IMG/VR virus record: IMGVR_UViG_3300020202_000090
Location: 1-53,195 of that record
Direction: 5' to 3' (one strand)
DNA length: 53,195 bases
Source of the DNA: a virus
The position numbers were made by a program, and so were the translations under genes. Shown one piece after another: positions 6,948 through 28,763 of the stretch (its first letter is position 1; each line of letters starts with the position of its first letter). The notes under the pieces are model-generated. The model searched no databases. It was not told where the DNA came from and was given only the letters and a program-made list of their open reading frames with translations.

Positions 6948-6986
6948 ACCCAAATTAGCTTCATAGATACCTTATGTTATAATAAA

Positions 6987-7289
6987 TTACTTCTTTTTAA
7001 CCATTAATTTGGTGCTTTTTTGAATGAAAGAATAAAATTGATCATCAATAATGCTTTTAGCTGCTGTAAGTTTATTGAATTGCTCCAAGGAGTCTTTAGA
7101 TGAAGCAATCTTCGAAGAAATCTGATAGCTATAAAAAGAATTGCAAGATTGACAGCGAACCTCTCCTGATTGTCGCGTTTCGCCAGATGGTCGAAGCGGG
7201 TAAAGAGCGATTTGACCGCTACACGACGGACAATTAAAATTTGCTACCGGAGTAGCCCATGGGACTAGATTAACCTCAGTCCATTCCAC
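6987..7289 (-). CDS. zinc-ribbon protein, 100 aa
   Basis: GTG start overlapping the upstream stop (TAGTG). Two CxxC pairs (CPSC near residue 20, CQSC near residue 46) form a zinc ribbon, followed by a helical, lysine-rich tail. Such proteins often bind nucleic acid or RNA polymerase; the actual role is unknown. Confidence 0.55.
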   Translation of the reverse strand: MEWTEVNLVPWATPVANFNCPSCSGQIALYPLRPSGETRQSGEVRCQSCNSFYSYQISSKIASSKDSLEQFNKLTAAKSIIDDQFYSFIQKSTKLMVKKK

Positions 7290-7408
7290 TAAGCTGCCTC
7301 TTTCTTTTCATTCCACTTCCTACTTTTACAAGCAGGGCATAATTGAATATTTTCTTGTCTCGGAACCCACTGATGTCCGCACCGCTGACACTTTAATTTA
7401 GTAATCAT
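7289..7408 (-). CDS. zinc-ribbon microprotein, 39 aa
   Basis: ATG at 7408 behind GGGAG. The product MITKLKCQRCGHQWVPR continues to a second pair CPAC, the compact C-x2-C-G-x2-W-x-PR ... C-x2-C ribbon common in phages and archaea. It is the first gene downstream of the leftward promoter and is coupled to the next gene by an overlapping stop/start. Confidence 0.65.
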   Translation of the reverse strand: MITKLKCQRCGHQWVPRQENIQLCPACKSRKWNEKKEAA

Positions 7409-7428
7409 AAGATCTCCCATATGTTTTG

Positions 7429-7457
7429 ATTGTATACCGATGATAGGTAACTGTCAA
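7429..7457 (-). promoter_or_regulatory. sigma70-type leftward promoter
   Basis: On the - strand TTGACA (7457-7452) and TACAAT (7434-7429) are separated by 17 nt. It would drive the 7408-to-6316 genes and faces away from the cargo promoter 40 bp away, forming a divergent control region. Confidence 0.65.
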
Positions 7458-7468
7458 AATAAATCGTA

Positions 7469-7486
7469 TTAGGACGAAAGTCCTAA
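7469..7486. promoter_or_regulatory. perfect dyad TTAGGAC-GAAA-GTCCTAA, likely operator
   Basis: A perfect 7-bp inverted repeat with a 4-nt centre sits midway between two divergent promoters. Its half-site GTCCTA recurs at 7514-7519 inside the cargo promoter and at the 35687-35714 palindrome. As RNA it would be a GNRA-capped hairpin, but no U-run follows on either strand, so an operator is favoured over a terminator. Confidence 0.45.
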
Positions 7487-7494
7487 AAAAGTTC

Positions 7495-7522
7495 TTGACT
7501 GCTATAAAAAGCGTCCTATAAT
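7495..7522 (+). promoter_or_regulatory. strong sigma70 promoter of the cargo operon
   Basis: TTGACT (7495-7500) and a perfect TATAAT (7517-7522) have a 16-nt spacer. The first gene's ATG is at 7532, 9 bases after the -10 box, where transcription should begin. No Shine-Dalgarno sequence fits between, so the first message is probably leaderless. Confidence 0.75.
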
Positions 7523-7531
7523 CCTAGATTA

Positions 7532-9157
7532 ATGGTTTTTAATCTACCCCCCCTAGATTACCCATATTTGGCCCACCTGTTCATTATTTCCATAACCTAT
7601 TTTATCACATGGGGATACATAATTTTCTCTAAGACTTCCTTCTTAATTGACGATCAGGACGGGTTAGAGAGATTCAATGATAGGTGGGACGGGGAAAAGG
7701 TCATCAATACTTACGAACATGACGAAAATGGCATTAAAACGTCCTATAACAATATTTCTTACAATCCTAGGGTTGGGCTCCCCGGTAGCGTTATAAGATG
7801 GCTCAGGCTCAATCTAGGCAAAAAATTCACGGTAATAGGGAAGAACTCCAAAGGCCACGAGGTCTTCGGGTACGTTCAGAGTCCAAGAAGGCACCACGCG
7901 ATCTCTTTCATTGTTCATTTTGCGAACGTTATTTTAACTTACTTCTTTTTAGCTCGGATCTTTGATCCCACATTAGCTTTCCTATCAACCTTACTATTTG
8001 TAGTTCATCCCGTAACTTGTCAAGCTGTTGCCTGGATCTCTGGAATCGGTTATCTCCAGTGCTTATTCTTTGCATTGGTTTCCTTTCACATTGCCTTATC
8101 CAACCCCAATCCCTACCTCCTCATGCCGGGAGTTTTTTTCTCCTCACTACTCTCGGCATGGGGACTCTTCTCAGGGGCATTTAATTTCATTCCACTTCTA
8201 TTAATAGGAAAGTTTGAAGCTGGGATCATTGCATCTTTAATTTTATTCGTTGCTTTCTTTCAGTTCGGGAAGGGGTTTGTGACCCGTCGAGTATCCGAGT
8301 TTAAAAAACAGAACATGGCACGTTCCACCTTCCTCAATCCGCGTAAGCCCATCGTCATGATAAAGACGCTCTGGTACTACCTCCGGTTGGTCATATTCCC
8401 TAAAAGACTCGGTTTGTTTCATAGCTGGGGCTACCACTATGACGAGAAACTCGAACGTATTGATGGATTATTTTGGAAGGGTCTTCTGAGCCTTGTCATT
8501 CTGATATCTCTCGCAATTCTTGGGCCATATGCAGTAACTTTTGGCATTGTCTGGTTCATTACCTATCTCCTCGTTTTTTCTAACTTTATGACAGCCATGC
8601 AGTTTGTGGTGGATCGGTATGTCTTTATTTCCTCTTTGGGATTCTGCATTGTGGCATCGTATTACTTACAAGACTATCCGGTAATCTTTAGTTTTGTCCT
8701 AGGTATTTTCCTGATGCGTACCTTGGTTCATCTTCCGACCTTTAAAAACCTTGTTTCATTCTATAAATCCAATATTGAAAACTTTCCTGATTCTGAAGTG
8801 GCTTATGGGAACCTAGGAGTTACGCTTCATCATGAAGGTAAGACTGGTTCAGCCATGGACCATTGGACTGAATCTGCAAAAATCAATCCTTACTATGACG
8901 TTCCTCATTACAACATGTACCAGGTCTACCGAATGAGTGGAATGCTTCAACAAGCTAAAGATGAATTAAACAAATGCTTAAATTCTAAAACGGTTCATTT
9001 CCCAGAAATGTGGTCTAAGGAAATGGAAGGTTTAGAAAAAACAATGGCGATTCAGTCTCGTAAGAATGAAATTAACAACGAGATTAATAAGTACTTTGCT
9101 GAAGGTAATTTTGAAAAAATGTCGGAACTTAAGAAAGAGATGGAGAATCTTAAGTGA
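7532..9157 (+). CDS. GT-C-type membrane glycosyltransferase with TPR tail (TMTC-like)
   Basis: 541 aa. Multiple hydrophobic helices hold LFVVHPVTCQAVAWISG (about residue 158), a signature resembling TMTC/DUF1736 O-mannosyltransferases and bacterial relatives. A near-N-terminal acidic patch (LIDDQDGLERF) fits the first periplasmic loop of GT-C enzymes. After the last helix two TPR-like units follow (SEVAYGNLGVTLHHEGK; YDVPHYNMYQVYRMSG), then a charged tail. These enzymes use lipid-linked sugars at the outer face of the inner membrane. First gene of the operon, probably translated from a leaderless message. Confidence 0.65.
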   Translation: MVFNLPPLDYPYLAHLFIISITYFITWGYIIFSKTSFLIDDQDGLERFNDRWDGEKVINTYEHDENGIKTSYNNISYNPRVGLPGSVIRWLRLNLGKKFTVIGKNSKGHEVFGYVQSPRRHHAISFIVHFANVILTYFFLARIFDPTLAFLSTLLFVVHPVTCQAVAWISGIGYLQCLFFALVSFHIALSNPNPYLLMPGVFFSSLLSAWGLFSGAFNFIPLLLIGKFEAGIIASLILFVAFFQFGKGFVTRRVSEFKKQNMARSTFLNPRKPIVMIKTLWYYLRLVIFPKRLGLFHSWGYHYDEKLERIDGLFWKGLLSLVILISLAILGPYAVTFGIVWFITYLLVFSNFMTAMQFVVDRYVFISSLGFCIVASYYLQDYPVIFSFVLGIFLMRTLVHLPTFKNLVSFYKSNIENFPDSEVAYGNLGVTLHHEGKTGSAMDHWTESAKINPYYDVPHYNMYQVYRMSGMLQQAKDELNKCLNSKTVHFPEMWSKEMEGLEKTMAIQSRKNEINNEINKYFAEGNFEKMSELKKEMENLK

Positions 9158-10062
9158 TTTTTTCCTGCATCATTCCTTGCTCCACTAAAGATTTAAAATC
9201 TCATAAATATAAAGAATTAGTTGATTCCATTCGCGCTCAAGACTTCCCTCAAGATCAGATTGAAATCATCACCGTCACGGAAGGTGATTCAGAGTCTGCT
9301 AAAGGGATTGGTATTAAAATGGCCACGGGAGAGATCTGCGCCATGTTTTGTGCGGATAACTATATCACCGAAAAAGATCTTTTTAACAGAGTTAGATATT
9401 TTCTTCAGTTTAGTTTTTTATCTGCTGTTTATCCGTGGCGTTATTCTTATAAAGAAAATGATAATTCTCTTAATAGATACTTCTCTTTAATCGGAGGGAA
9501 TGATCCGGTTTGTTACTACATAGGAAAGAATGACAGATACCCACATGTAGAAGAGCTTGAAATAAATACAAATTACCCAAAAAGTTTCGGCTGTAACGGT
9601 TTTTTCTACAAGGCTGATCAAATTAAAAATACTAATCTTGATAACTATTATCCAATGGATAACGCTTTAGAAGTTCCAGCTGCAATAAGGGCTTTTCCAT
9701 CATCAGGTATTTGGCATAGAACTTCGGACGATTTAATCAGCTTTTTAAAAAAGAGGTATAAATATGCAAGAGACCTTTACTGTGACCGTACAAATCGACG
9801 GTGGCGTATGCTTGACACAAAAGAAGATTACTGGAACCTTTTCCTCTTTGTCATATTTACTCTTACAGTTATCCAACCTCTTTCGGTCAGCCTCAAAGGA
9901 TTTAGAAAAATCAGAGACTTCGCCTGGTTCTGGCATTGGCCAGTCTGCGTTGGATTCCTCATTACCTACTCGATCTTAACCATTAGAAACCTATTCAAGT
10001 ATGGTGCTTTATTCCAAAAGTCTCCATCGTCATTCCGACATACAAGCGTCCAGACAGCTTAA
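9154..10062 (+). CDS. GT2-like glycosyltransferase, membrane-anchored
   Basis: GTG start overlapping the upstream stop (GTGA). The N-terminus (IFSCIIPCSTKDLKSHKY) and the region IITVTEGDSESAKGIGIKMATGEICAMFCADN correspond to the GT-A fold, with CADN where the usual DxD lies, a possible loss of metal binding. Two C-terminal hydrophobic segments (about residues 225-280) anchor it. The last 13 codons are read out of frame with the start of the next glycosyltransferase, so the 3' end is dual coding. Confidence 0.6.
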   Translation: MIFSCIIPCSTKDLKSHKYKELVDSIRAQDFPQDQIEIITVTEGDSESAKGIGIKMATGEICAMFCADNYITEKDLFNRVRYFLQFSFLSAVYPWRYSYKENDNSLNRYFSLIGGNDPVCYYIGKNDRYPHVEELEINTNYPKSFGCNGFFYKADQIKNTNLDNYYPMDNALEVPAAIRAFPSSGIWHRTSDDLISFLKKRYKYARDLYCDRTNRRWRMLDTKEDYWNLFLFVIFTLTVIQPLSVSLKGFRKIRDFAWFWHWPVCVGFLITYSILTIRNLFKYGALFQKSPSSFRHTSVQTA

Positions 10063-10793
10063 AACGATGTCTAGACAGTCTAAACAAACAGTCCTTCAAA
10101 GATTACGAGGTGATCGTTGAAGGAGAAGAAGGACCGCTTGCAGCCATTCGAAATAAAGGGGCCAGAAGAGCCTCTGGAGAATATATCGTCTTTATTGATG
10201 ACGACGTTTTCACAACTAGAGACTGGCTCAAATCCATTGTTGAAACCTTTGAAAACGAGTCTGTTGATGGCGTGTCAGGACCTGCAATCATGCGGTTACA
10301 GCATAAACGCAACCGGGACCTGTTCCGTTTCCCACGAATCAAATTCTTATACGATTTATTATTTCTTGATGGGCTCGGACGTTTGCCTGGCCATTTCACA
10401 GCCTCGGGCGCTTGGACCACGGGAGCCTCAGAAGCCCTCTGTTCCTACGAAGGAGAAGTCCATTTTCTCGAAGCTTGCAACATGGCTTTTAGGCGTTCTA
10501 CGTTTGAAAAGTTAGGAGGATTTGATGAAACCTACAAAGGTGTCGGTGATTGGTCAGAGCCAGATCTTTGTTTTAGAGCCAGAGCGAACGGATCTCGACT
10601 TTACTTTAATCCACGAGCAAAACTGTACCATGAACCATCCACAAGCGGAGCATTCTTCAAGCGTAACGTGGATTCCAGAAATCGGATGGATAATTACTTG
10701 CTCTTTTCACGGCGCTGGATCAAGCCGTGCTTTAAACACACGCTCTACAAGATCTTCATGACTCTCTACTATGCGATTAAAGCCATTAAATGA
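10011..10793 (+). CDS. GT2 family glycosyltransferase, apparent ATT start
   Basis: The protein begins KVSIVIPTYKRPDSLKRC, the classic GT2 N-terminus, then FIDDDVFTTRDW (DxD) and GGFDETYKGVGDWSEPDLCFRA (acceptor/catalytic ED region). The frame is closed upstream by TAG at 9984, and no ATG, GTG or TTG precedes the GT2 motif; the first usual start (GTG 10110) would delete it. ATT at 10011 gives IPKVSIVIP and a normal 260-aa enzyme. A -1 shift from the upstream gene or a sequence error are alternatives. Probably transfers a hexose or rhamnose to a lipid-linked glycan. Confidence 0.7.
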   Translation: MPKVSIVIPTYKRPDSLKRCLDSLNKQSFKDYEVIVEGEEGPLAAIRNKGARRASGEYIVFIDDDVFTTRDWLKSIVETFENESVDGVSGPAIMRLQHKRNRDLFRFPRIKFLYDLLFLDGLGRLPGHFTASGAWTTGASEALCSYEGEVHFLEACNMAFRRSTFEKLGGFDETYKGVGDWSEPDLCFRARANGSRLYFNPRAKLYHEPSTSGAFFKRNVDSRNRMDNYLLFSRRWIKPCFKHTLYKIFMTLYYAIKAIK

Positions 10794-11346
10794 CACTGTC
10801 ATCATTAAACATGATGCGAATACTGTTTACGACGACAATCCAGAAATTCACAGGATTGTTAAAGAAGGCCTTATCCACATACCGGAAAAGAACTCCATTA
10901 TTAAACGAAGCGAATATGCGGTTGTCGAGATGGTGGGACCGAAATGTAAATTACCTATTTATGCAGGACAAAGAATCGTTCTTAGAAGGTTCTTCGACGA
11001 AAAGAAAGACTCTTACTTTGAATACGATGGGGAACAGTATCGTTTTATTTTAGAACATTACATTACGGGATTGGAGATAGCTATGAAGATTAAGCCAGTC
11101 AAAAGAAATATTCTAGTAAAGATTTTTCAAAAAGATGAGGTTACTCAAGGCGGCATCATTCTTCCTGATACAGCTAAAGAAGAGAAGCATCAAGGAACCG
11201 TAGTTGCCTTAGCGGATGATGTTAAAGAAGATGTCAAAGAAGGGGATACTGTCATCTTTGGAAAGTATGCTGGCGAAGAGATCATGATTTGGAATGTAAA
11301 ACATAAAATGATCTCAGTAGACGATGTGCTTGCGGTGCTTGAATGA
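10771..11346 (+). CDS. tandem GroES-like co-chaperonin (two domains)
   Basis: 191 aa. Residues 1-103 read as one GroES-like barrel (MRLKPLNDTVIIK ... GLIHIPEKN ... YAVVEMVGP ... YAGQRIVLRRF) and 105-191 as a second, more canonical one (KIKPVKRNILVKIF ... GGIILPDTAKEEKHQGTVVALADD ... GDTVIFGKYAGEEI). Met105 (11083) has GGAG upstream, so a single-domain 87-aa form may also be made. Bacterial GroES has one domain of about 95 aa; fused pairs are known for chloroplast Cpn20. The product may replace host GroES during folding of phage proteins, as T4 gp31 does, or help cargo enzymes fold. Confidence 0.8.
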   Translation: MRLKPLNDTVIIKHDANTVYDDNPEIHRIVKEGLIHIPEKNSIIKRSEYAVVEMVGPKCKLPIYAGQRIVLRRFFDEKKDSYFEYDGEQYRFILEHYITGLEIAMKIKPVKRNILVKIFQKDEVTQGGIILPDTAKEEKHQGTVVALADDVKEDVKEGDTVIFGKYAGEEIMIWNVKHKMISVDDVLAVLE

Positions 11347-11576
11347 TCAAAGTTGCCGCTCATTTTTTAATGAACCACGTCGAGCCTTTAATAGACAAAC
11401 TCAGTGACGCCTTATGGTTTATTGATCAAAAAGGTATTCCTATTAATGAAAAGTCCATCAGAAAAGCGTTTAACAAATTAATTGAAAGCCAGCTTGAAAT
11501 CGAGTTTATCAGAGGAATTTTCAATCTAGCTATTGTGATCATTATCTGCTTAACCGTTTACATGATTATTCGATGA
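11343..11576 (+). CDS. small C-tail-anchored membrane protein, 77 aa
   Basis: ATGA overlap with the GroES-like gene. The N-terminal 55 residues are amphipathic (EPLIDKLSDALWFIDQKG) and the last 20 form one membrane helix (IFNLAIVIIICLTVYMIIR). Family not recognised. Its place between GroES and a dolichyl-phosphate-type transferase suggests an accessory subunit for a membrane glycosylation step. Confidence 0.5.
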   Translation: MIKVAAHFLMNHVEPLIDKLSDALWFIDQKGIPINEKSIRKAFNKLIESQLEIEFIRGIFNLAIVIIICLTVYMIIR

Positions 11577-12259
11577 AAGATCTTTCCATAGTTATTCCAG
11601 TATTAAACGAAGATCACTCAGTTGTTGAAAATTTAAGGAAGTCTTTAGTCCGTAAAGGCGCTGAGGTGATTATCGTAGATGACGGTTCTAAAAACCCATT
11701 TCCACATTCGATTAAACACGGGGTTAATTTCGGATACGGATCAGCATTAATGACTGGAATCAAGAATGCTACCAGACCTTTAATCATGACGATCGATGGA
11801 GACGGACAGCATGGTAATGAAGAAGCTAATCGACTTTATAAAGCTTACAAACTTATCGGGGAGCCGGACATGTTAGTTGGTGTTCGGAGAATCAAGAGCG
11901 AGAAATTAGTGAGGTTTCTTGGGAGGAAGTTTCTTAATTGGATCGCTTCCTTGATTTGCATGGTCTGGCTTCCCGACCTTAACTCTGGAGCTAGGATTTT
12001 CAAAAAAGACTTAGCCATTGGTTATTTTCCAATCCTCTGTAAGACATTCTCTTTTACCACAAGCATTACGATTTCCATGATGTGCGATAACTACAGAGTA
12101 GAGTTTTTCCCCATCAGAGTAGAAGACAGAGCCCACGGAAAGAGTCACGTAAACGTGATTAAACACGGATTTATTACTCTTTTTTACATTTTAAGAAACG
12201 GAATTGCTTTAAGAACCAGGAGACTTCGTAGTTGGATCAGGCCCCTTTATTCACGGTAG
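11573..12259 (+). CDS. polyprenyl-phosphate glycosyltransferase (GT2, DPM1/ArnC-like)
   Basis: ATGA overlap with the previous gene. The N-terminus DLSIVIPVLNEDHSV, the nucleotide-binding VIIVDDGSKN, and the metal-binding TIDGDGQH are all intact. LPDLNSGARIFKK and the HGKSHV motif match enzymes that load sugars on undecaprenyl or dolichyl phosphate. There are no C-terminal membrane helices. It probably makes the lipid-linked donor used by the GT-C proteins at 7532 and 18219. Confidence 0.75.
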   Translation: MKDLSIVIPVLNEDHSVVENLRKSLVRKGAEVIIVDDGSKNPFPHSIKHGVNFGYGSALMTGIKNATRPLIMTIDGDGQHGNEEANRLYKAYKLIGEPDMLVGVRRIKSEKLVRFLGRKFLNWIASLICMVWLPDLNSGARIFKKDLAIGYFPILCKTFSFTTSITISMMCDNYRVEFFPIRVEDRAHGKSHVNVIKHGFITLFYILRNGIALRTRRLRSWIRPLYSR

Positions 12260-12783
12260 ACCTGGAAGACTGGAATCATGCCTTACATGTAACCAAGGGT
12301 AAGCATTCAAGTGCACCAATTGTGAAAGATTATCTTTTACCGATTCTTAAGAAGAATAAAGTGAGAGCTATTTTTTACGTTTTGGGAAGATTTAAAAAGG
12401 AAAATGAATCTCTCGTTGAAGCTATAAGTGATGACGGCCACATTATGGGTTCACATGGACACTATCATGACCATAATGAAACCATCACTCCAAGAATTAG
12501 TTATTACACCCATCATTATAGATCTCCTTATTGGGACACAACTCCTATGCCCTGGCCCCCGAGTGGAGGTTTTTTCTTTCGGGCACTTCCGTACGCTTGG
12601 ACTCGGTGGGCTACTTTAAAATCAGGTGTATTTTGGATTCATCCTCATGACTTAGACGAAGAACATCCCAAACTTAAAAATCCATTACTAAATTGGAAGA
12701 GACATGTCGGGCTTAAAACAGCCAGAAAAAAACTAGAGAGACTTTTAAGTGAAGTTAAATTCGGAACACCATCACATAGCTAG
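12232..12783 (+). CDS. NodB-type polysaccharide deacetylase
   Basis: TTG start after AGGAG. Family motifs are visible: TVDLEDW (metal-binding Asp, about residue 10), GSHGHYHDH (metal-binding His pair, about residues 73-81), YRSPYWD and a C-terminal IHPHDLDEEHP. At 183 aa it is shorter than the usual 220-280 aa. Enzymes of this fold remove N-acetyl or O-acetyl groups from glycans using a divalent metal. Confidence 0.75.
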   Translation: MDQAPLFTVDLEDWNHALHVTKGKHSSAPIVKDYLLPILKKNKVRAIFYVLGRFKKENESLVEAISDDGHIMGSHGHYHDHNETITPRISYYTHHYRSPYWDTTPMPWPPSGGFFFRALPYAWTRWATLKSGVFWIHPHDLDEEHPKLKNPLLNWKRHVGLKTARKKLERLLSEVKFGTPSHS

Positions 12784-12895
12784 GACCGATCTTTTACAGG
12801 CTATTTGGATACCTAAACAAAATAAGGTTATTTGGATTAATTACTGTGAATGTGGATGTAAATGGAGGGAAGTATATGAGTCACAACCATCCTAA
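12749..12895 (+). CDS. zinc-knuckle microprotein, 48 aa
   Basis: GTG at 12749 behind a GAGA element; the frame bridges the space between the deacetylase and the methyltransferase, overlapping both. The product contains NKVIWINYCECGCKWRE, a beta-hairpin with C-x-C-G-C. Its smooth coding sequence removes what would be the only gap in the operon. Confidence 0.5.
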   Translation: MKLNSEHHHIARTDLLQAIWIPKQNKVIWINYCECGCKWREVYESQPS

Positions 12896-13625
12896 AGGAA
12901 TAAAGGGCGAACCTCATGAAGAAGAACTTGTCCAAGATTACGTTTCCAGACTCTATCCAAAAAGATACAGCGGAACAGGTTTTCTCTACCACGCGAGAAT
13001 CGTTACAGAGATGCTTGACGGGCTCAAGTTCCGTGATGGACGCCATTCTGACAAAGTGCTTGATGTTGGCTGTGGGATTGGTTTTGTTAGTCAGCTTTAT
13101 CCTAATTTCGATATTACTGGGATCGATATTTCTGAAGGTATGCTTAGTCACAATCCTTATAAATGGATTAAAGCTCCTGCTGAATCTATTCCGTTCCCCG
13201 ATAACACCTTTGATTTTGTTGTATGTCGTAGCTTGTTACATCACTTGGAAGTTCCTTCAGATGGACTTAGAGAAATGGTCCGCGTGCTTAAGCCAGGCGG
13301 AAAGTGGGTCTGCTGGGACCCAAATTATAACCTGCTTTCTGAGAGCTTTAGAGCCGTAGCAAGACTCACTCCGAGGTTTTCTCATATCCACAAGAATTTT
13401 AAGGATAAGGACCTCTACCGTATGATAGAGGAGTCAGGCCTCAAGATCACCTCTAAGAAGTACATCGGTTTTCTCGCTTACCCGTTAATTGGATTTCCAG
13501 ACATTATGAATTTAAATCTACCCATCTGGTTCGGAAGAACGTTAATGGCCATTGATGATTTTATTGGAAAAACGCCATTCAAAGGAATGGCTTGGAGTTT
13601 GATGGTAAAGGCAGAGAAGAAATGA
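12876..13625 (+). CDS. class I SAM-dependent methyltransferase
   Basis: ATG 12876 (MSHNHPKG) has an ideal GGAGG; an in-frame GTG at 12846 is unlikely. Motif I VLDVGCGIGFVSQ, acidic motif ITGIDIS, and post-II FDFVVCRSLLHHLEVPSDGLREMVRVLKPGG are complete, as in UbiE/Methyltransf_11 enzymes. The substrate is not evident; in glycan clusters such enzymes methylate sugars or lipid carriers. Confidence 0.75.
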   Translation: MSHNHPKGIKGEPHEEELVQDYVSRLYPKRYSGTGFLYHARIVTEMLDGLKFRDGRHSDKVLDVGCGIGFVSQLYPNFDITGIDISEGMLSHNPYKWIKAPAESIPFPDNTFDFVVCRSLLHHLEVPSDGLREMVRVLKPGGKWVCWDPNYNLLSESFRAVARLTPRFSHIHKNFKDKDLYRMIEESGLKITSKKYIGFLAYPLIGFPDIMNLNLPIWFGRTLMAIDDFIGKTPFKGMAWSLMVKAEKK

Positions 13626-13771
13626 AATCAGAAAATACACGACTGAATGTAAAAATTCCTAAAGATGTTAAAAAATCAATAAAGATTCACTGTGTAGAAA
13701 ATGGGTTGAGTATAAAGGATTTTACTATTGAGGTTTTTAAAACATACATTCGTGATAAGGCTAATTTATGA
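13622..13771 (+). CDS. ribbon-helix-helix protein, 49 aa (Arc/CopG-like)
   Basis: ATGA overlaps at both ends tie it to its neighbours. The product has the beta-strand/two-helix pattern of Arc-type repressors: TRLNVKIPKDVKKSIKIHC, turn NGLSIKDF, then helix TIEVFKTYIRD. A DNA-binding regulator embedded within the operon could control its own transcription unit or the host; the operator is unknown. Confidence 0.6.
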   Translation: MKSENTRLNVKIPKDVKKSIKIHCVENGLSIKDFTIEVFKTYIRDKANL

Positions 13772-15366
13772 GTTCAATTTACGGTGATAGAGAAGTTCAG
13801 AGAATCGGTAAAACCTTAACCATAGGCCGAGAGCTTGGCTATGAAAAGGTTAAATTGGAGGATCAGGAATTTGATAAATCTCCAAAAGAGATCCGAATCC
13901 TCTTTATTAACCCACCAGTAGATTTCTCGGTTTTTTATGCAGATATGGACTTATCAGACACGAAATCTTCGAGTCCTCCAATTGGCATTCTCCACTTAGC
14001 TTCTATCACAAGAGAGTACGGTTATCAGGTTAAGTTACTCGATGCACACGCGGAAGGTTTGAATATCGAATCTATTATCCAAAGAATAGATGATTTTAAA
14101 CCGGATATTGTCTGTCTTACAGCTATGACCATTATGATTGATGCAGCTGGCGAGATCGCAAAGGCTGTTAAGGAATATAACAAAGAAATTATCACCATGA
14201 TCGGAGGCGTTCATTTAACCGCTGAGCCAAGACTTACACTGGAAGAATATCCACAGTTTGATTTTGGAGTGGTCGGTGAAGGTGAGGTTGTAATTTTAGA
14301 TTTTCTCGATCACCTAAGATTAGGAAAAGACTTGGCTAATGTGAGGTCTTTGGTTTGGAGAAATCATCAAACTAAAGAAATTACAGTCAATCCCAGAAGA
14401 GATTTTTATAAAGACTTAGACCATTTCCCTTTTCCAGCTTTTGACCTTGTTGGTGATAAGCTTTTTTCTCACTATCGTTTAAGTGTTTTTGGAACCAAGC
14501 AATTTAGATCTATAGGATTAGTCACCAGTCGTGGCTGTACAGGGATGTGCTCCTTTTGTGATCTTGGGGTTGTTGGTCGTGGTTACAGAATCATGACTGC
14601 TGAATATTTAATTCAGCATCTTAAAGAACTCCACGCTACTTACGGCGTAAATGACCTTCTTTTCTATGACGACATGTTCACTGGAAATCGAAAACGTCTT
14701 GAAACTTTCTGTAGAGCAATGATCGACGCTGGAACTCCGTTTACTTGGAGCTGCTGTTCCAGAGTTGACTTCGTTCAGTACTTAGAGATTTTAGAACTAA
14801 TGCGAGATGCTGGGTGCCACACCATAGAATTTGGTGTCGAGTCTGGGTGTCAAAGAATCCTAGATTCGATGAGAAAGAACGTCACCAAAGAACGAATAAG
14901 AGAAGTAATCGACAAAGCTACAAAAGCTGGGATTACCACTAAAGCAAATTTTATATTAGGCCATCTCGGAGAAACTCATGACTCCATCATGGAGACTATC
15001 GAGTTTGCCAAATCTTTAAATGTTAATTATGTCCAGCATACACATCTAGTTCCACTTCCTGGGTCTGAGACTTTCGAGCTCGCCAGTAAATATGGAACCT
15101 TTGATCCTAGCTGGAAGAAAATGAACACTCTTTTAATTAACTTCATACCTACTGGAATGACAAGAAAAGATCTTGTTTGGTACTCCAAGAAATTCTGGAG
15201 AAGCTTCTATTTAAGACCAAAAATTGTCTGGCAAGAGTTTAAAAAGATAAAAGGTTTAGAAGACTTAAAAAGGCTTTGGCTAGCAATTAAAAGTTTTTTT
15301 AAGGTTACTTTGTTAAGGAAAAGTTCACTTAGAACACATAGCGGAAAGGTTGGGTTGATTCATTGA
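13768..15366 (+). CDS. B12-binding radical SAM enzyme
   Basis: 532 aa. N-terminal cobalamin-binding Rossmann fold with the DxHxxG motif as DAHAEG (residues 92-97) and GGVHLTAEP. The radical SAM cluster motif is C257-x3-C261-x2-C264 (SRGCTGMCSFCD), then GVESGCQRIL and a C-terminal extension of about 130 residues. Family members do radical methylations, ring rearrangements or C-C chemistry on lipids, antibiotics and sugars. In this cluster a lipid or glycan tailoring step is the best guess. Confidence 0.8.
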   Translation: MSSIYGDREVQRIGKTLTIGRELGYEKVKLEDQEFDKSPKEIRILFINPPVDFSVFYADMDLSDTKSSSPPIGILHLASITREYGYQVKLLDAHAEGLNIESIIQRIDDFKPDIVCLTAMTIMIDAAGEIAKAVKEYNKEIITMIGGVHLTAEPRLTLEEYPQFDFGVVGEGEVVILDFLDHLRLGKDLANVRSLVWRNHQTKEITVNPRRDFYKDLDHFPFPAFDLVGDKLFSHYRLSVFGTKQFRSIGLVTSRGCTGMCSFCDLGVVGRGYRIMTAEYLIQHLKELHATYGVNDLLFYDDMFTGNRKRLETFCRAMIDAGTPFTWSCCSRVDFVQYLEILELMRDAGCHTIEFGVESGCQRILDSMRKNVTKERIREVIDKATKAGITTKANFILGHLGETHDSIMETIEFAKSLNVNYVQHTHLVPLPGSETFELASKYGTFDPSWKKMNTLLINFIPTGMTRKDLVWYSKKFWRSFYLRPKIVWQEFKKIKGLEDLKRLWLAIKSFFKVTLLRKSSLRTHSGKVGLIH

Positions 15367-15590
15367 AAAAAGGATGCGAAATTTGTTTAAAATTTAGAAA
15401 ACAATGTATTCATTATCTACATGCTCTTTTAGAGCATTCCAGGGAAGTTGAGAAAAAATCAAAAAACGGCGTTGGCCACTTAAAAGGGGTTGCATGTTCG
15501 CATAAGCTAGGCGTTGCCTTGGATATGTTGCTTAATTTTAATTTGGGTTGCCATGATTTTGGTGATAAAGAAAAAGAATGTAAATATTAA
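15363..15590 (+). CDS. cysteine-rich small protein, 75 aa
   Basis: TTG start overlapping the preceding stop (TTGA). Cysteines at KKGCEICLK, KQCIHY, VACSHK, LGCHDF and KECKY with histidines could bind zinc or an Fe-S cluster. It lies between two B12 radical SAM genes, so an electron carrier, partner or modified peptide is possible; none can be shown. Confidence 0.55.
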   Translation: MKKGCEICLKFRKQCIHYLHALLEHSREVEKKSKNGVGHLKGVACSHKLGVALDMLLNFNLGCHDFGDKEKECKY

Positions 15591-15772
15591 TGGTAGAAGA
15601 ATTTAATTATTTAAAGAAGTCCATCGGTCCTCCTGGGGAAATGCCGGAAACATGTGGATCTTGTTTTAGCAAGATTTTGCTTCCAGACAAACTAAGCGTT
15701 TCTGTCGGATGGTATTTTGTTAAAGGAAAGTACAAGTGCAACAAATGTCATGGAGATATATTTAACGAATGA
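15590..15772 (+). CDS. zinc-ribbon protein, 60 aa
   Basis: ATG shares a base with the preceding stop (TAATG). Two pairs, CGSC (residue 22) and CNKC (about residue 50), form a ribbon around the beta-strands SVSVGWYFVKGKYKC. It is coupled to the following radical SAM gene by ATGA. Confidence 0.55.
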   Translation: MVEEFNYLKKSIGPPGEMPETCGSCFSKILLPDKLSVSVGWYFVKGKYKCNKCHGDIFNE

Positions 15773-17094
15773 AAATTTTATTTTGCAATCCTCCAAGTCC
15801 TGACGGCTACATCTATATCAGGGATATTAATAGATCAGGAAGACGTTCAAAGGAGAGAACCATCTGGCCCCAAACGTCTCTTGCAATGCTTGCATCTGTA
15901 TTCCCCGAAGATGATGTTCTTATTATTGACTGCATTGCCGAAGGAATTAGCTACAAAAACCTTTTTGAACGTATGGCGGCATTTGGACCTGATTGGGTCG
16001 TCTTCAATCCGGTCAGCACCACGATTACTCATGACATGATAGTAGCACATTATGGTAAATCACTAGGAGCAAAAACAGTATCTGTCAGCCCACACACAAA
16101 GGCGTTGAGGGAGGAATCACTTGAACGATATAAATCACTTGACCATGCAGTTGATTATACAAGGGGAGGAACCGAACCAGAATATAATCTCAGAGAACTT
16201 ATTAAAGGCATTCCAGCAGATAGAACACGATTTGAAGATCTACCACCGGCACGTCAAGACTTATTGCCCATCCAAAAATATAGCTTACCATTTATCGGTC
16301 GTGGCTACACCTTTGTTGTTACGTCCCGAGGATGCCCCTGGAAATGTATCTACTGCCGACAAACCGTAATGAACGAATCGAAAGTTCGCTATCGTCCCGT
16401 CGAAACCGTCATCGAAGAAATCAGCCGTTATAAATTAACCAATATAGCCTTTCATGCTGACACAGCAACCATGAACAAAAAGTGGATCTACGACTTTTGT
16501 GATCAGGTTGAAAAACTTCCATTCAAAGTAAGAATTGTAACAAATTCACGTGTAGATACGGTTGATTTAGATATGCTTAAACGAATGAAACAGGTTGGAT
16601 TTTGGATGATCTGCTTTGGTACAGAGTCTGGAAATAATAAGGTTTTAGAAATGAACAAAAAGGAGGCAACTGTTGAACAAGCGCGAGAAGCTAATAAAGC
16701 TGCTAAAAGAGCAGGCCTTAGAGTATGGAATTATTTCATGCTTGGACTGCATGGCGATACAAAGTCTAGTATGGAAGATACTATTAAACTTTCACTCGAA
16801 CTCCCATCAGACATTGTCAACTTCGCTATCTCTGCCCCTTACCCAGGGACTGAGTGGGGGAAAATTGCAGAAGAAAAAGGATGGATGGTTGATAAACGTT
16901 GGGAAGCGTACGATCAGAATTACTCTGCTCAAGTAAGTCAGCCGGATTGTCCGGTTGATCTTGTTAAGAAGATGCAAAAGAAAGCTTATTTTAAATGGTA
17001 TACATCCTGGCGCGGAGCCAAATTTTTTCTTAATTCTTTTCGGCCTGAATATATGGACTATTTCATTAAAACCATAGGAGACCATTTGAGATGA
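15769..17094 (+). CDS. radical SAM enzyme with degenerate B12-binding domain
   Basis: 441 aa. The N-terminal Rossmann-like domain reads ILFCNPPSPDG ... IIDCIAEG, where the cobalamin-ligand histidine position of DxHxxG is Ile, suggesting base-off His is missing. The cluster motif is C189-x3-C193-x2-C196 (SRGCPWKCIYCRQ). GTESGNNKVLEMNKKE and LGLHGDT are typical radical SAM core segments. Likely tailoring of the same product as its paralogue at 13768. Confidence 0.75.
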   Translation: MKILFCNPPSPDGYIYIRDINRSGRRSKERTIWPQTSLAMLASVFPEDDVLIIDCIAEGISYKNLFERMAAFGPDWVVFNPVSTTITHDMIVAHYGKSLGAKTVSVSPHTKALREESLERYKSLDHAVDYTRGGTEPEYNLRELIKGIPADRTRFEDLPPARQDLLPIQKYSLPFIGRGYTFVVTSRGCPWKCIYCRQTVMNESKVRYRPVETVIEEISRYKLTNIAFHADTATMNKKWIYDFCDQVEKLPFKVRIVTNSRVDTVDLDMLKRMKQVGFWMICFGTESGNNKVLEMNKKEATVEQAREANKAAKRAGLRVWNYFMLGLHGDTKSSMEDTIKLSLELPSDIVNFAISAPYPGTEWGKIAEEKGWMVDKRWEAYDQNYSAQVSQPDCPVDLVKKMQKKAYFKWYTSWRGAKFFLNSFRPEYMDYFIKTIGDHLR

Positions 17095-17222
17095 CATGGA
17101 AAGATTTTAAGGATAAGTGCGAAATGCAAGGCATTAAAGATGATGATAATATTTGGTACATAGACATTTCTGATAAATTTTTTGAATGTCAGTTAAGAGA
17201 TGGGGATTGGGTTATATGTTAA
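17091..17222 (+). CDS. small acidic protein, 43 aa
   Basis: ATGA overlap with the preceding gene. The product (MTWKDFKDKCEMQGIKDDD then IWYIDISDKFFECQLRDGDW) resembles a small beta-rich binding domain. Function unknown; it is close enough to radical SAM genes that a peptide substrate cannot be excluded. Confidence 0.5.
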   Translation: MTWKDFKDKCEMQGIKDDDNIWYIDISDKFFECQLRDGDWVIC

Positions 17223-17407
17223 ACGAGCATTTAATCAGAGAAATTGATAGGTTAGAGGAAATCGGATTTGAAGCTTTAGAAAAAGAAGCTAAAAAAGTCA
17301 GATTGTATATTGAAAGATGTTCTAAAGATCCTGCGATTTATGGGGATATGAAATATCGAAAAGAATACTTAGCTGAAATAAAAAACAGACTCAAAAAATA
17401 CGAATGA
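17216..17407 (+). CDS. small helical protein, 63 aa
   Basis: ATG 17216 overlaps the upstream stop by 7 nt; an extension to 17186 lacks a good ribosome site. Two amphipathic charged helices (EIDRLEEIGFEALEKEAKK; YRKEYLAEIKNRLKK). It lies directly before a SPASM-type radical SAM gene with ATGA coupling; a leader-peptide role is possible but it lacks an obvious core region. Confidence 0.5.
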   Translation: MLNEHLIREIDRLEEIGFEALEKEAKKVRLYIERCSKDPAIYGDMKYRKEYLAEIKNRLKKYE

Positions 17408-18291
17408 AGGTAACTTTATATGCCCAGAAACTCAAAAATCTCCACCCGTGGTTATACAAACTCGGCGCCCAAGCCTGGATCGATTATAAATTCCCAAGAC
17501 ATCTATTCATTGAAACCACAGCGGCCTGCAATCTCCGATGTGATTACTGTCCTAGGACCAGGATCAACAACCACATGGACTTCGATGTCTTCCGAGCCAT
17601 TATTGATGAATCCTCCAGATATGGTGCGAGGTCGTTTAGTCTCCACCTCTTCGGAGAGCCGTTCCTCTACCCAAAAATATTTGAAGCAATTCATTACATT
17701 AAAGAAAAAAACAGAAAACACACTATTCTCCTTACAACAAACGGTACGCTTGTTGAACGATATCTTGATCGAATTATCGACTCCGGTATTGATAAGCTCA
17801 TCTGGAGCTGGAGGCCAGAAACAAAGTTCTCCAAAGAAACGAAAGAAAGATTAACGAAATGGGGAAGACTTACCGTAAGGATGATAAAAGGCGTCACGCC
17901 CCAAAACGCGTTCGAAGAGTGGGGAAACCATCCAGGTCTAGAGATCCGAGAACTCCACAACTACGGAGGAGACATATCACTGGAAAAATTTGGTGTAAGT
18001 TCCACGGCTGGCAAGAGGTGGCCTTGTTATCACCTTTGGTATGCCCCGGCTGTGAGCTGGAACGGAGACCTCCTCATATGCTGCTCCGACCCGCACAAGA
18101 AGGAAGTCCTAGGAAATATCCGGGACATGACCATATCCGACGCATGGCAGAAACTGAGCAAGATTAGAGAGAGTCATTTAAAAGGCAGGTTCGAAGGAAT
18201 CTGTAAAGGATGTGACGTTTGGAAATCGTATCCGCCGCACCACTTTTCTTGGCAGTATACAACTTCATCTTCTTCCGAAAATTCTATTTAA
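17404..18291 (+). CDS. radical SAM protein with SPASM-like C-terminus
   Basis: 295 aa. Radical SAM motif C42-x3-C46-x2-C49 (ACNLRCDYCP), then LHLFGEPFLYPKI and LLTTNGTL. The C-terminal part has LLICCSDPHKK and ICKGCDVW, matching the extra cluster ligands of SPASM/twitch enzymes that modify peptides or oxidise alcohols, including sugar dehydrogenation. It overlaps the next gene by 73 nt. Confidence 0.75.
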   Translation: MKVTLYAQKLKNLHPWLYKLGAQAWIDYKFPRHLFIETTAACNLRCDYCPRTRINNHMDFDVFRAIIDESSRYGARSFSLHLFGEPFLYPKIFEAIHYIKEKNRKHTILLTTNGTLVERYLDRIIDSGIDKLIWSWRPETKFSKETKERLTKWGRLTVRMIKGVTPQNAFEEWGNHPGLEIRELHNYGGDISLEKFGVSSTAGKRWPCYHLWYAPAVSWNGDLLICCSDPHKKEVLGNIRDMTISDAWQKLSKIRESHLKGRFEGICKGCDVWKSYPPHHFSWQYTTSSSSENSI

Positions 18292-19454
18292 ATCCGTTTC
18301 TTAATTCGACGGGTGAGATGCAAAGCACGTTCTTACCTCAGATCTTATGGCAGGGACGAAAGTGGAGGAAATTTCAAGCCCCTCTAAAAGATTCGATATA
18401 TTACTATGAACCAGGGGCATTGCCTTTTCTAGCAACATTTTACCCACCTCAGATTCTTGTAGCAGTTTTAACAACTCTAATGTGTGTTGACGTTGCATTT
18501 GTTTTCTTGCAAATAACTCTTTTTTACCATTACTTTCTAAGCTCTCTTCTTTCATATCTTTTAATCCTCCAGTGGGCTGATCCTATTGTAGCACTTTTCG
18601 GCTCTATTTCATTAACCTATATGGCCTCTAGTATTCGGATTCAACACCCTTGTGCGGTTTACACCGTTTGCTGGATTCCTGGAATCTTTATAGGAGGGTG
18701 GATTGGGGCTGTAAGTTTAGGAATGGCTATCTTAGGAGGGTACTGGCCCATCCTGATTAACTTCCTTCCTATTATAGTAGGAGCTTATATCTTGTGGGGA
18801 TACCCCATTTGGCCCCTATTAATAGGAAGCGCACTTGCACTACCACAGATCATTTTGACCTTAAATTACTACCCTAGGTCAATCAGGACCTGGAAGAACA
18901 CCAGCAAAGCCGGAAAGGTCCCGGCATGGAAGTTTTTGGATGTTTTTTTAGGAGATAGAACCCACTGTAAAATTAACGATGTGTTCAGTTGGGAGATGTC
19001 TTGTTATTCGGGACTTGCTTTATTTCTAGCATTCTTTGGTTCCTCCACGGCTGCACTTGTGATGTTTATTTCCGCAATCCTTTCCATGACTTATTCTGTT
19101 TTTAGATTACCTTGCAGGATGCTTCATTTATTTTCATTTTGTTTGGTGTGGTGCGCTACTAGCGGACTTCAGAACCTAGACAATTCCTATACGATATTAA
19201 TTGTCTTAATTCAAGCCTTCCTCCTTCTTCGTAATGCGGATATTTACCCGTGGTATCCATTCGCAGAACCCATCCGTAAACCATCTTACTATTTTGAAAA
19301 GGAGTCCTATGATCTATCCAAGTTTCCCTACTTCACAGGATACTTCCACGAACGAGCAACTAAAGGATACACCGGTGGATTTTGTCTTAAAGAAACCGCG
19401 CTTCGTCACGGAATCACGAACCCGAACGGTGAAGGACTCCATGAAAGAAATTAG
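18219..19454 (+). CDS. polytopic membrane protein, GT-C/YfhO-like
   Basis: 411 aa, start TTG 18219 inside the previous gene. At least eight hydrophobic helices; the first loop STGEMQSTFLPQILWQG and YYEPGALPFLATFYPPQIL resemble YfhO-type GT-C proteins, which move sugars from lipid carriers outside the membrane. It lacks a long C-terminal periplasmic domain; the soluble tail (FEKESYDLSKFPYFTGYF) is overprinted by the next gene. It is likely a transferase acting after the GT2 enzymes; weak recognition. Confidence 0.5.
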   Translation: MEIVSAAPLFLAVYNFIFFRKFYLNPFLNSTGEMQSTFLPQILWQGRKWRKFQAPLKDSIYYYEPGALPFLATFYPPQILVAVLTTLMCVDVAFVFLQITLFYHYFLSSLLSYLLILQWADPIVALFGSISLTYMASSIRIQHPCAVYTVCWIPGIFIGGWIGAVSLGMAILGGYWPILINFLPIIVGAYILWGYPIWPLLIGSALALPQIILTLNYYPRSIRTWKNTSKAGKVPAWKFLDVFLGDRTHCKINDVFSWEMSCYSGLALFLAFFGSSTAALVMFISAILSMTYSVFRLPCRMLHLFSFCLVWCATSGLQNLDNSYTILIVLIQAFLLLRNADIYPWYPFAEPIRKPSYYFEKESYDLSKFPYFTGYFHERATKGYTGGFCLKETALRHGITNPNGEGLHERN

Positions 19455-19701
19455 TCAAATCGTTGCGATTAATTGTTTAGGAATGGCGATCTTAGTTGAC
19501 GCTTTTAAGTCTGCTTCTTCACACTTTGTGGAAAAATCAAAAAGACATTACGGAAACGACGAAGTCAATAAAGAGTCTTTTCTTTTTATTAGAGGTACTG
19601 CTTTGGAGTACGTATTAAAAACGTACAACATCGCGTACGACGCTGACGAGTTACGAAAAGCATTTTTTAACTTCATAGACCATAAGGAATTTATTGAATG
19701 A
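19309..19701 (+). CDS. hypothetical protein, 130 aa (or 86 aa)
   Basis: ATG 19309 has AAAGGAG at good spacing and gives 130 aa, overlapping the previous gene by 146 nt. A second ATG at 19441 with AAGGA gives 86 aa. The C-terminal part is helical (INCLGMAILVDAFKSASSHFVEKSKRH); the N-terminal 44 residues are Thr/Ser/Pro-rich. No family recognised. Coupled to the next gene by ATGA. Confidence 0.5.
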   Translation: MIYPSFPTSQDTSTNEQLKDTPVDFVLKKPRFVTESRTRTVKDSMKEISQIVAINCLGMAILVDAFKSASSHFVEKSKRHYGNDEVNKESFLFIRGTALEYVLKTYNIAYDADELRKAFFNFIDHKEFIE

Positions 19702-20687
19702 TATCTTTGATTTTTTGTCATCACAAAGGAAGGTTAATTGATCGGGCAATTGAAACAGCTTTAAAGTCTCGGAAGATTGAATTTGAAATCATTGTAGCGA
19801 CTTCTGACCCGACATTTTCTTACAACCATCCTGTTGTAAAAGTAGTTCAAATAGAAGGTGGTCCAGCTAAGAAAAGAAACTTAGCACTCCGGTATTCAAT
19901 AGGGGAATACATTGCTTTCTATGATGACGATGTGGAATTAGATATGGATTCCTTAGTTGAAATGTATCACGTTTTAATAAGACCTGAAGTGGGAATGGTT
20001 TTCGGGAAATTACTAAACATGGAGCATCGTGACAGATTTGATGAGGCTGGTGGTTTTTTAACTTGGACAGGATTCATTTGGTCGAGGGCTGAGAACAACC
20101 TAAAAGATGTTGGACAGTATGAAAACATCGAACCTGTTTTTTCTGGAAAATCAGCGGCTTGTATGATTAAAAGAAAAGTTCTTACCTCTGTAGGAGCATT
20201 TGATACCACATTTGGTATATTGGGGGAAGAGACTGATTTAGCTTGGCGAGTATGGTTATCCGGTTATCAGGTTCTATTTGTTCCTCGGTCTGTTACGTGG
20301 CACGCCTTTAATACTAAATTTAAACCCATCGATTTTTACACCCACGAACGAGTCTATTACAACGGTTGTAGAAATTACATCACGATGCTTGCGAGTAATT
20401 TAGAAACCAAGAATTTATGGAAAATTTTACCGATTCATATTATTTGCTGGATTGTTGCTGGAACCGGAATGTTTTTTAAAGGCAAGTTTCGAGCGGCGTT
20501 CTTCATATTTCGCGGATTACTATCTATACCGCATAATATTAGCTGGATCAAGATTAAGCGGGAGAAGGTTGCAAGTATCCGTAAATTAACGGATAAAGAG
20601 CTATTTAAAACAATCTATCGAAAAGTGAATCTTGGTTATTACTTAAACCGTCTTTTTCGATATTGGCAAATTGGATTGCATGGATAA
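19698..20687 (+). CDS. GT2 glycosyltransferase, rhamnosyltransferase-like
   Basis: 329 aa. Motifs include the N-terminal ISLIFCHHKGRLIDRAIETAL, YIAFYDDDVELD (DxD) and GILGEETDLAWRVWLSGYQVLFVP (catalytic ED). A C-terminal amphipathic/hydrophobic region (about residues 240-275) may attach it to the membrane. Probably extends a glycan on a lipid carrier. Coupled upstream by ATGA and downstream by an 8-nt overlap. Confidence 0.7.
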   Translation: MISLIFCHHKGRLIDRAIETALKSRKIEFEIIVATSDPTFSYNHPVVKVVQIEGGPAKKRNLALRYSIGEYIAFYDDDVELDMDSLVEMYHVLIRPEVGMVFGKLLNMEHRDRFDEAGGFLTWTGFIWSRAENNLKDVGQYENIEPVFSGKSAACMIKRKVLTSVGAFDTTFGILGEETDLAWRVWLSGYQVLFVPRSVTWHAFNTKFKPIDFYTHERVYYNGCRNYITMLASNLETKNLWKILPIHIICWIVAGTGMFFKGKFRAAFFIFRGLLSIPHNISWIKIKREKVASIRKLTDKELFKTIYRKVNLGYYLNRLFRYWQIGLHG

Positions 20688-21396
20688 TTACTGGCCTACG
20701 CTGTACGAAGACAAGTACGCAGTTAGAAGAATAAAACAATCCGTAGATCTTTTACATGCCTTGCCGATGGAAAGCGTTTTGGACATTGGTTGTAACAAAA
20801 AAGAGGCACTTAAATATCTACCCTCCAATATCTCCTATACTGGCATAGACGGCATCTACGGACACCAAATTGACGGTTTATTTGATTTAGGACGAACGTT
20901 CGATAACATTCTATGCCTTGAGACCTTGGAGCACTTAAAATGGCCCCAACAGACTTTAAAGTCAATTTATGACCATTTACGGCCTGGAGGTACAGTTGTC
21001 ATAAGCCTTCCGAACGAAACAACCCTGTTTCATAGAATAAGAGCCCTCTTTGGAGTGGTGGACGCGGAATGCTTCCAAGAATGCTCTAAACATCTCCATC
21101 TCCCAAGCCTTTCTCAAAGTCGACTGTTCCTATCCAGTTTGTTCAAGATTGAGAAAGAGAAGTATTACATTAACCCGAGCGCAACAGGATCTCGCCAAGC
21201 GTGGCTCGGAGACCTACTCAAACTAATCCCAGATAACTTTTGGCAGCTTTTGGCCAACTTAATGCCAAGTCTCTTTGCAAGAGGCTGGATATTTAGGTGC
21301 AAAAAAAATGAAGCAACCAAGGATTCTGCTTTTGGACATCGAGACCAGTCCGCTAACTTGTTACACATGGGGATTATACGATCAAAATGTGGTTAA
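20680..21396 (+). CDS. SAM methyltransferase, type 11/23-like
   Basis: ATG at 20680 (MDNYWPTLYED). VLDIGCNKKEALKYL (motif I, with Asn-Lys-Lys instead of GxG), ISYTGIDGIYG, ILCLETLEHL and LRPGGTVVISLPNE are in place. A C-terminal extension carries LGDLLKLIPDNFWQL. Likely methylates a sugar or lipid; overlaps the next gene by 89 nt. Confidence 0.65.
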   Translation: MDNYWPTLYEDKYAVRRIKQSVDLLHALPMESVLDIGCNKKEALKYLPSNISYTGIDGIYGHQIDGLFDLGRTFDNILCLETLEHLKWPQQTLKSIYDHLRPGGTVVISLPNETTLFHRIRALFGVVDAECFQECSKHLHLPSLSQSRLFLSSLFKIEKEKYYINPSATGSRQAWLGDLLKLIPDNFWQLLANLMPSLFARGWIFRCKKNEATKDSAFGHRDQSANLLHMGIIRSKCG

Positions 21397-22033
21397 AAAG
21401 ATAAAGACTTTCAGCATTCTTTCTGTTGCCTACCAATGGTTCGGGCAAAAAACAAAAGTATTAGCTTGTGATAATCAATCAGAAAAGTCTCTTCTTTCTA
21501 AACTCCACAAACTTTTAGACCAAGCAGACGTGGTCATTGCTCATAACGGAGATTCTTTTGATATAAAAAAAATAAACGCAAGGTTTATAGTTCACAAATA
21601 TAACCCACCAAGTCCCTATAAAACGATTGATACCAAGAAAGAAGCAAAGAAGGTTGCGGCGTTTGACTCTAATAGTCTGAATAATTTAGGTATTGATATG
21701 GACGAAGGCGAAAAGATCAAACACCGTGGATTTGATATGTGGGAAGGGTGTATGTCTGGGAATAAGCGAGATTGGGATGACATGAAGCGATACAATAAAA
21801 AGGACGTTGATTTATTAGCCAGAATTTATCTAAGACTAAGAGCCTGGATGAAAAACCATCCTAATGTTACTTTGTACAGTAAATCAAATCCAGAATCTTG
21901 CCCTAAATGCACTTCAGATAAAGTCCAAAGAAGGGGTTTTGACGTAAAGAAATCAAAGAAGTACCAGAGATTCCAGTGTCAGGATTGTGGTGGTTGGTTT
22001 AGTGGTATGCCGTTACTTTCCAGAAAAGTCTGA
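21308..22033 (+). CDS. DnaQ-like 3'-5' exonuclease with zinc ribbon
   Basis: ATG 21308 (MKQPRILLLDIETSP). Exo I DIET, Exo II VVIAHNGDSFDIKKINARF, and Exo III YNKKDVDLLARIYLRL (Y-x3-D) give the DEDDy catalytic set; the family resembles RNase H-like YprB-type nucleases. The C-terminus adds CPKC ... CQDC, a zinc ribbon. It is the last + strand cargo gene and is the only nucleic-acid enzyme in the operon; may be a phage replication or anti-host gene. Confidence 0.65.
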   Translation: MKQPRILLLDIETSPLTCYTWGLYDQNVVKKIKTFSILSVAYQWFGQKTKVLACDNQSEKSLLSKLHKLLDQADVVIAHNGDSFDIKKINARFIVHKYNPPSPYKTIDTKKEAKKVAAFDSNSLNNLGIDMDEGEKIKHRGFDMWEGCMSGNKRDWDDMKRYNKKDVDLLARIYLRLRAWMKNHPNVTLYSKSNPESCPKCTSDKVQRRGFDVKKSKKYQRFQCQDCGGWFSGMPLLSRKV

Positions 22034-26584: not shown

Positions 26585-26675
26585 CTTCCCTCCACTCATG
26601 CGGGTTTACTTAGCAACATCCTGCAATCGAACAATCCATTAAGTAATCGTAAGTTTCCATATCTCCATCACTCCT

Positions 26676-26816: not shown

Positions 26817-26833
26817 CAGACTTCTCGTTGCTA

Positions 26834-28716: not shown

Positions 28717-28763
28717 GGTTCATTTTGTATTGAGGAAAAGATTTTACATTGGACATTTTTAAT

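Follow-up and report, generated by a model that had tools for sequence, protein, structure and literature searches.

A conserved glycan-type gene cassette with radical SAM enzymes in a clade of ~50-kb tailed phages

The virus record IMGVR_UViG_3300020202_000090 (53,195 bases; this whole stretch is called the window below) carries at positions 7532–22033 a cassette of about 19 packed genes, all in the same direction, whose predicted products include glycosyltransferases and radical S-adenosylmethionine (SAM) enzymes. Does such a block form one operon belonging to the phage, and what might it do for its carrier? The original prediction, made from the sequence of the window alone, regarded the block as one operon filling about 27% of the genome and encoding a lipid-linked saccharide pathway. 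The first 127 bases of the record are the same as the last 127 bases (a direct terminal repeat); the window is a closed or terminally redundant genome with a 53,068-bp unit, and the block takes up 27.3% of it, in agreement with the estimate. By Pfam, the block encodes four GT2 glycosyltransferases, one NodB-type deacetylase, two methyltransferases, and three radical SAM enzymes (one B12-binding and one SPASM), the very enzymes that had been named. Start and stop codons overlap at 15 of the 18 gene junctions, and the remaining three have gaps of 91–142 nucleotides (nt). A fourth radical SAM gene (22013–23464), on the opposite strand just past the block end, belongs to the cassette and is kept at the cassette end in relatives. 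All four radical SAM products matched PF04055 above the cut-off and possess the Cys triad. This fourth gene, a tandem GroES, an exonuclease (21308–22033), and several small open reading frames (ORFs) were missing from the original prediction. The existence of the operon as described was confirmed, and a single product of the whole operon is putative.

Gene order, promoter, and clade distribution

The major capsid protein (MCP), the terminase, the membrane/TPR protein, and two of the radical SAM proteins served as queries in scans of viral contigs, which recovered related phage contigs of about 48–54 kb. Gene order and locus of the cassette are shared by the window, G001, G003, G004, G007, G008, G009, and G010, and the order is repeated in G016, G018, and G022/G014 (counted together, as G014 matches the second part of G022), giving 11 distinct viruses including the window. 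A conserved equivalent is thus present in phages, and the homologues are not scattered without a shared order. The window, G004, and G007 are closed genomes. Between the eight phages first listed, protein identity was 41–59% for the concatenated cassette and 49–74% for the structural proteins. Nearly all window genes at 23.5–34.9 kb were unmatched in the relatives, indicating that the cassette, unlike this early region, belongs to the conserved portion of the genome.

Some variation was observed within this order. G009 and G010 have a single B12-type radical SAM gene in place of two, and the fourth radical SAM gene of G022 runs in the direction of the cassette. Cassette genes were also found in G017 and G023 (order seen in part), with two radical SAM genes of G023 lying on the strand opposite to its membrane/TPR gene. 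The 95-kb G022 contig was examined for flanking host DNA; by inspection, its first ~40 kb resemble another, complete-looking long-tailed phage, apparently joined to a phage of the cassette lineage either as a chimera or as two adjacent phages.

The cassette is preceded by a sigma-70-type promoter sequence (Table 1). In six of the seven other phages (G001, G003, G004, G007, G008, and G009), TTGACA occurs 35–38 nt before the orthologous start codon, compared with 2 of 602 other genes at that spacing (Fisher p=1e-11, for related genomes that are not independent samples). G001 and G003 have weak -10 boxes, and the pattern was not found at that spacing in G010, G016, G018, and G022. Judging from these motifs, the putative cassette promoter is conserved, being common but not universal. 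A transcript from such a promoter would begin at, or a few bases from, the start codon and would be near-leaderless. The cassette adjoins the structural genes, downstream of them and on the same strand. Three small minus-strand genes without homologues in the relatives lie in between (6316–7531), an arrangement seen in the window phage only, and a divergent promoter-like site (TTGACA-17-TACAAT, 7457–7429) is located beside them.

In the MCP tree, all cassette-bearing records fell into one clade (UFBoot 95), and two closed phages without the cassette, G021 and G026, fell into its sister group. In these two, convergent replication genes come directly after the large internal virion gene, at the end of the structural genes, in place of the cassette. 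That the cassette is missing from G019, G020, G024, G027, and other short records is uninformative. One gain of the cassette would be the simplest reading of this distribution, and a probable one; one loss in the sisters would be as simple. The cassette and structural trees agreed on the clades G003+G004 and G009+G010 and differed at other nodes, so some exchange is possible.

Beyond this clade, the membrane/TPR protein had no match among isolated phages, and for the radical SAM and GT2 proteins the matches there were all distant (23–28%). The MCP was ~30% related to those of HTVC023P-like, Planktothrix, and Alcaligenes phages; HTVC023P and QDWS535 have GroES within the head module, and no cassette gene was annotated in their inspected stretch. 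A close bacterial copy of the cassette was not found in one genome-collection scan. On plasmids of Lawsonia and Solidesulfovibrio, a related gene for a B12 radical SAM enzyme has glycosyltransferase and epimerase genes nearby, joined in Lawsonia by methyltransferase and sugar kinase genes. The best radical SAM match, on an Azoarcus plasmid, was not among saccharide genes.

Proposed envelope-glycan modification and rival explanations

We consider it somewhat probable that the cassette is a clade-defining, vertically kept module that modifies a host envelope glycan, in an undescribed lineage of ~50-kb tailed phages. This reading builds on the order and locus shared by 11 viruses in one MCP clade, the conserved promoter, and the GtrB/ArnC/DPMS-type synthase at 11573–12259, whose chemistry would likely yield a polyprenyl-linked sugar. 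It also builds on the saccharide neighbours on bacterial plasmids, on kinship to AprD4, and on nucleotide-sugar genes added in relatives. AprD4, the closest PDB relative of the enzyme at 13768–15366, is a deoxygenating enzyme that acts on an aminoglycoside sugar in aminoglycoside biosynthesis. The genes in or beside the cassette include a GDP-mannose dehydratase, an RmlD-like protein, and a DegT aminotransferase in G001 (Pfam), and, by sequence resemblance, a nucleotidyltransferase and a HAD phosphatase in G008 and a cupin isomerase and an epimerase in G009/G010. The inspected catalytic motifs are retained: the D, HxxxH, and later metal-binding motifs of the deacetylase are invariant in four phages.

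We infer the following for the substrate, for the chemistry at each radical SAM step, and for acceptor and benefit. Driven by the host-type promoter of the cassette, the product of 11573–12259 would make a polyprenyl-phosphate-linked sugar, to which the other GT2 enzymes would add sugars. These may be tailored by deacetylation, SAM-dependent methylation, and B12/radical SAM chemistry, for example deoxygenation or C-methylation. One or both polytopic proteins would then transfer the product onto a host surface glycan or lipid at the outer face of the inner membrane, the flipping step being provided by the host or by an unrecognised cassette protein. The probable benefit is that a receptor would be masked or changed, and infected or lysogenic cells would exclude competing phages.

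Several observations weigh against this explanation. GtrA (PF04138), a WbaP-type initiating phosphoglycosyltransferase (PF02397; the WecA type was not searched for), and a Wzx-type flippase (PF01943) were found in none of the ten cassette phages searched (0/10 each, controls positive), and the cassette proteins gave no Wzy Pfam match, no search having been aimed at Wzy. The GT-C assignment of the polytopic proteins is weak or unsupported. As GroES, the exonuclease, and homing-type nucleases also lie in the block, its genes do not all serve a glycan, and there is a small chance that the target is the virion. Since the three families were not found, host steps must be borrowed, and the cassette most likely modifies or adds to an existing host structure. 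A complete polymer pathway was rejected on these grounds, and the suggested whole modified surface polymer is not supported; a polyprenyl-linked sugar remains likely.

For the polytopic protein at 7532–9157, whose acidic pair D40-D41 is invariant in 8/8 orthologues, a weak profile-profile match to PMT_2 proteins (E=2.5e-4, probability 43%, versus 0.1–0.4% for unrelated or YfhO profiles) weakly supports a probable GT-C enzyme. The protein at 18219–19454 matched no Pfam family across seven orthologues, one chance-level match aside; its GT-C assignment is not supported by sequence, and YfhO kinship was dropped (probability 4.5%). AlphaFold models of both proteins were too poor for use (predicted local distance difference test scores of 58 and 38), and the best matches of a fold search were TPR proteins (E>0.001). 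The GT-C-like transferases of the original prediction are thus weakly upheld in the first case and not in the second.

Lysogenic conversion proper, in which a prophage would express the cassette as a gtr-type serotype-conversion operon, is a sub-case of envelope-glycan modification and seems doubtful to us. It would accord with the host-type promoter, the GtrB-like synthase, and a XerC-like tyrosine recombinase in the window (33985–34872, integrase Pfam match); however, Pfam detected no integrase in G001, G003, and G004, G010 gave only a 22% XerC-like match, GtrA was not found, as above, and the one bacterial scan returned no copy. Lysogeny may be possible for the window and is doubtful for the lineage, which leaves the proposed action during lysogeny weak.

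Alternatively, the cassette could glycosylate the virion, with capsid or tail proteins decorated for shielding or adhesion by cytoplasmic GT2s or by a polypeptide-recognising, TPR-bearing GT-C. A membrane transferase bearing a TPR domain suggests that the acceptor is a protein, the cassette comes straight after the structural genes and on their strand, and GroES, a capsid-folding factor that belongs to the head module in HTVC023P and QDWS535, lies here inside the block. Nevertheless, two polytopic proteins and a polyprenyl-phosphate-sugar synthase point to the periplasm, not to the site of virion assembly, and the cassette has its own promoter; we regard this explanation as unlikely. A late-operon-only view, prompted by the position and GroES, was likewise weakened by the conserved promoter.

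Still less likely is a released or membrane-bound small glycoconjugate (a glycolipid, or an aminoglycoside-like or other antimicrobial) in place of a modified surface glycan. The unusual density of radical SAM enzymes and the AprD4 relationship would suit it, and HpnJ was the best-scoring family for three of these enzymes, although their scores (193.9, 148.8, and 123.1 bits) were far below the NCBIfam cut-off of 577.6. The HpnI/HpnK/HpnJ hopanoid cyclitol pathway also combines a GT2, a deacetylase, and a B12 radical SAM enzyme. A hopanoid glycolipid of this type was rejected because the family cut-offs were missed, and no hopanoid core gene, other hopanoid gene, exporter, or resistance gene was seen; the number of GT2s and the membrane proteins better fit surface sugars. 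Finally, misassembled host DNA or a chance pile-up of unrelated cargo has a negligible probability, given the terminal repeat of the window, the closed ends of it, G004, and G007, and the identical order in divergent phages, and the recurrence of that order elsewhere among the contigs excludes a misjoin of host and phage DNA.

Individual genes of the cassette

The coordinates of the cassette features are listed in Table 1. No ATG, GTG, or TTG precedes the conserved N-terminus in the GT2 frame 10011–10793, and comparison to the relatives suggests an ATT start codon that overlaps the preceding gene. At the equivalent place, GroES of the relatives is single-domain, whereas that of the window is a fused tandem of two Cpn10 domains. 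Homologues of the exonuclease were found in G007 and G008 only among the eight phages: a 69% identical copy at the equivalent place in G007 and a 36% copy on the other strand in G008. In the orthologues of the terminal radical SAM enzyme, G004 shows the Cys spacing CX4CX2C, and most of the N-terminal B12-binding part is missing from G003 and G004. By inspection, HNH or LAGLIDADG-like endonuclease ORFs lie between cassette genes in G001 (26532–26972), G007 (28732–30150), and G008 (42292–43917), which suggests homing-type insertion into the operon in relatives.

Table 1. Features of the cassette in the window (positions, strand, and basis of assignment)
Feature	Position	Strand	Basis or remark
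Sigma-70-type promoter, TTGACT-16-TATAAT	7495–7522	+	11/12 match; 9 nt before first start codon
Polytopic membrane protein with C-terminal TPR domain, probable GT-C glycosyltransferase	7532–9157	+	~10 hydrophobic segments; TPR profile match
GT2-like glycosyltransferase, one C-terminal hydrophobic segment	9154–10062	+	weak Pfam PF00535; orthologues 36–65% identical in 7 phages
GT2 glycosyltransferase, apparent ATT start	10011–10793	+	PF00535 E=5e-16; frame and start codon
Tandem GroES co-chaperonin	10771–11346	+	Cpn10, two stretches
77-amino-acid protein, one C-terminal transmembrane segment	11343–11576	+	equal-sized protein at that position in 8/8 phages
Polyprenyl-phosphate glycosyl synthase, DPMS/ArnC/GtrB-type GT2	11573–12259	+	PHROG 841 GtrB-like E=1.5e-14; profile matches ArnC, DPMS, sll0501
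NodB-type polysaccharide deacetylase	12232–12783	+	PF01522 and DUF3473
SAM-dependent methyltransferase	12876–13625	+	PF08241 E=4e-23
B12-binding radical SAM enzyme, CX3CX2C	13768–15366	+	PF04055 and PF02310; 75–82% identical in three phages
75-amino-acid ORF	15363–15590	+	not found in relatives
60-amino-acid Cys-rich ORF	15590–15772	+	not found in relatives
Radical SAM enzyme, CX3CX2C	15769–17094	+	PF04055 E=4e-24
73-amino-acid ORF	17186–17407	+	not found in relatives
Radical SAM/SPASM enzyme, CX3CX2C	17404–18291	+	PF04055 and PF13186; orthologue in 8/8 phages
Polytopic membrane protein, possible GT-C or transport function	18219–19454	+	~10 hydrophobic segments
Small protein, one hydrophobic segment	19441–19701	+	orthologues in most of 8 phages
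GT2 glycosyltransferase, C-terminal hydrophobic segment	19698–20687	+	PF13632/PF00535; in 8/8 phages
SAM-dependent methyltransferase	20671–21396	+	PF13489
RNase-H-like exonuclease with InsA-type (IS1-type) Zn ribbon, co-located passenger	21308–22033	+	PF13482, PF03811
B12-type radical SAM enzyme, CX7CX2C, cassette end	22013–23464	-	PF04055, PF02310; homologue at cassette end in 8/8 phages

Relation to known systems and significance

The gtrABC serotype-conversion operons of P22/Sf-type phages consist of three phage-borne genes with their own promoter (PMC3688519). The present cassette is likewise phage-borne with a promoter of its own, and shares with them a GtrB-type polyprenyl-phosphate glycosyl synthase and a polytopic protein; the place of the GtrC-like polytopic, serotype-specific transferase could be taken by two polytopic proteins, one with the weak PMT_2 profile match. 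It differs in lacking GtrA, in having three more GT2s, a deacetylase, two methyltransferases, and four radical SAM enzymes, in its fixed place beside the structural genes, and in its size of about 15 kb, compared with three genes. As the original prediction proposed, it is one operon that far exceeds a gtr serotype-conversion cassette in size; it is conserved, of glycan type, and under a promoter of its own. By analogy, it would work most like an enlarged gtrBC-type surface-conversion unit; without GtrA, it cannot be filed as gtrABC.

A host-recognition cluster of pelagimyophages contains glycosyltransferases and radical SAM cassettes, and a change of the host surface was proposed for it (PMC7029224). 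That cluster is a hypervariable region of T4-like myophages, whereas the present cassette, from ~50-kb phages of a different lineage, is a core module whose order is conserved. In PMC9723712, viruses of methane-cycling archaea (methanogens and methanotrophs) are described that carry O-antigen genes, along with a huge virus that encodes 15 radical SAM enzymes. They resemble the present phages in their virus-borne nucleotide-sugar genes, GT2/GtrB proteins, and B12 radical SAM enzymes; the inspected passages mention no ordered operon common to them. The surface-saccharide clusters on the Lawsonia and Solidesulfovibrio plasmids resemble the cassette in gene kinds and their association (B12 radical SAM, GT2), but homology is detectable only for one GT2 and the radical SAM genes (~20–28% identity), and the order is not shared.

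Within the open-licence literature, an ordered, clade-wide core module of such size with a conserved promoter appears to be new. The cargo by which phages convert a surface is usually small and variable. A block of about 15 kb in a ~50-kb genome, kept in one order despite 41–59% protein identity, must repay its cost. Tentatively, this core module, as opposed to optional cargo, may encode a glycoconjugate pathway with radical SAM tailoring, the product being a sugar structure that the host lacks; the phage would depend on this pathway in nature. The cassette is also a source of B12 radical SAM enzymes, a compact, uncharacterised set with sugars as likely substrates, and the clades with and without it provide a comparison for asking how the module benefits the phage.

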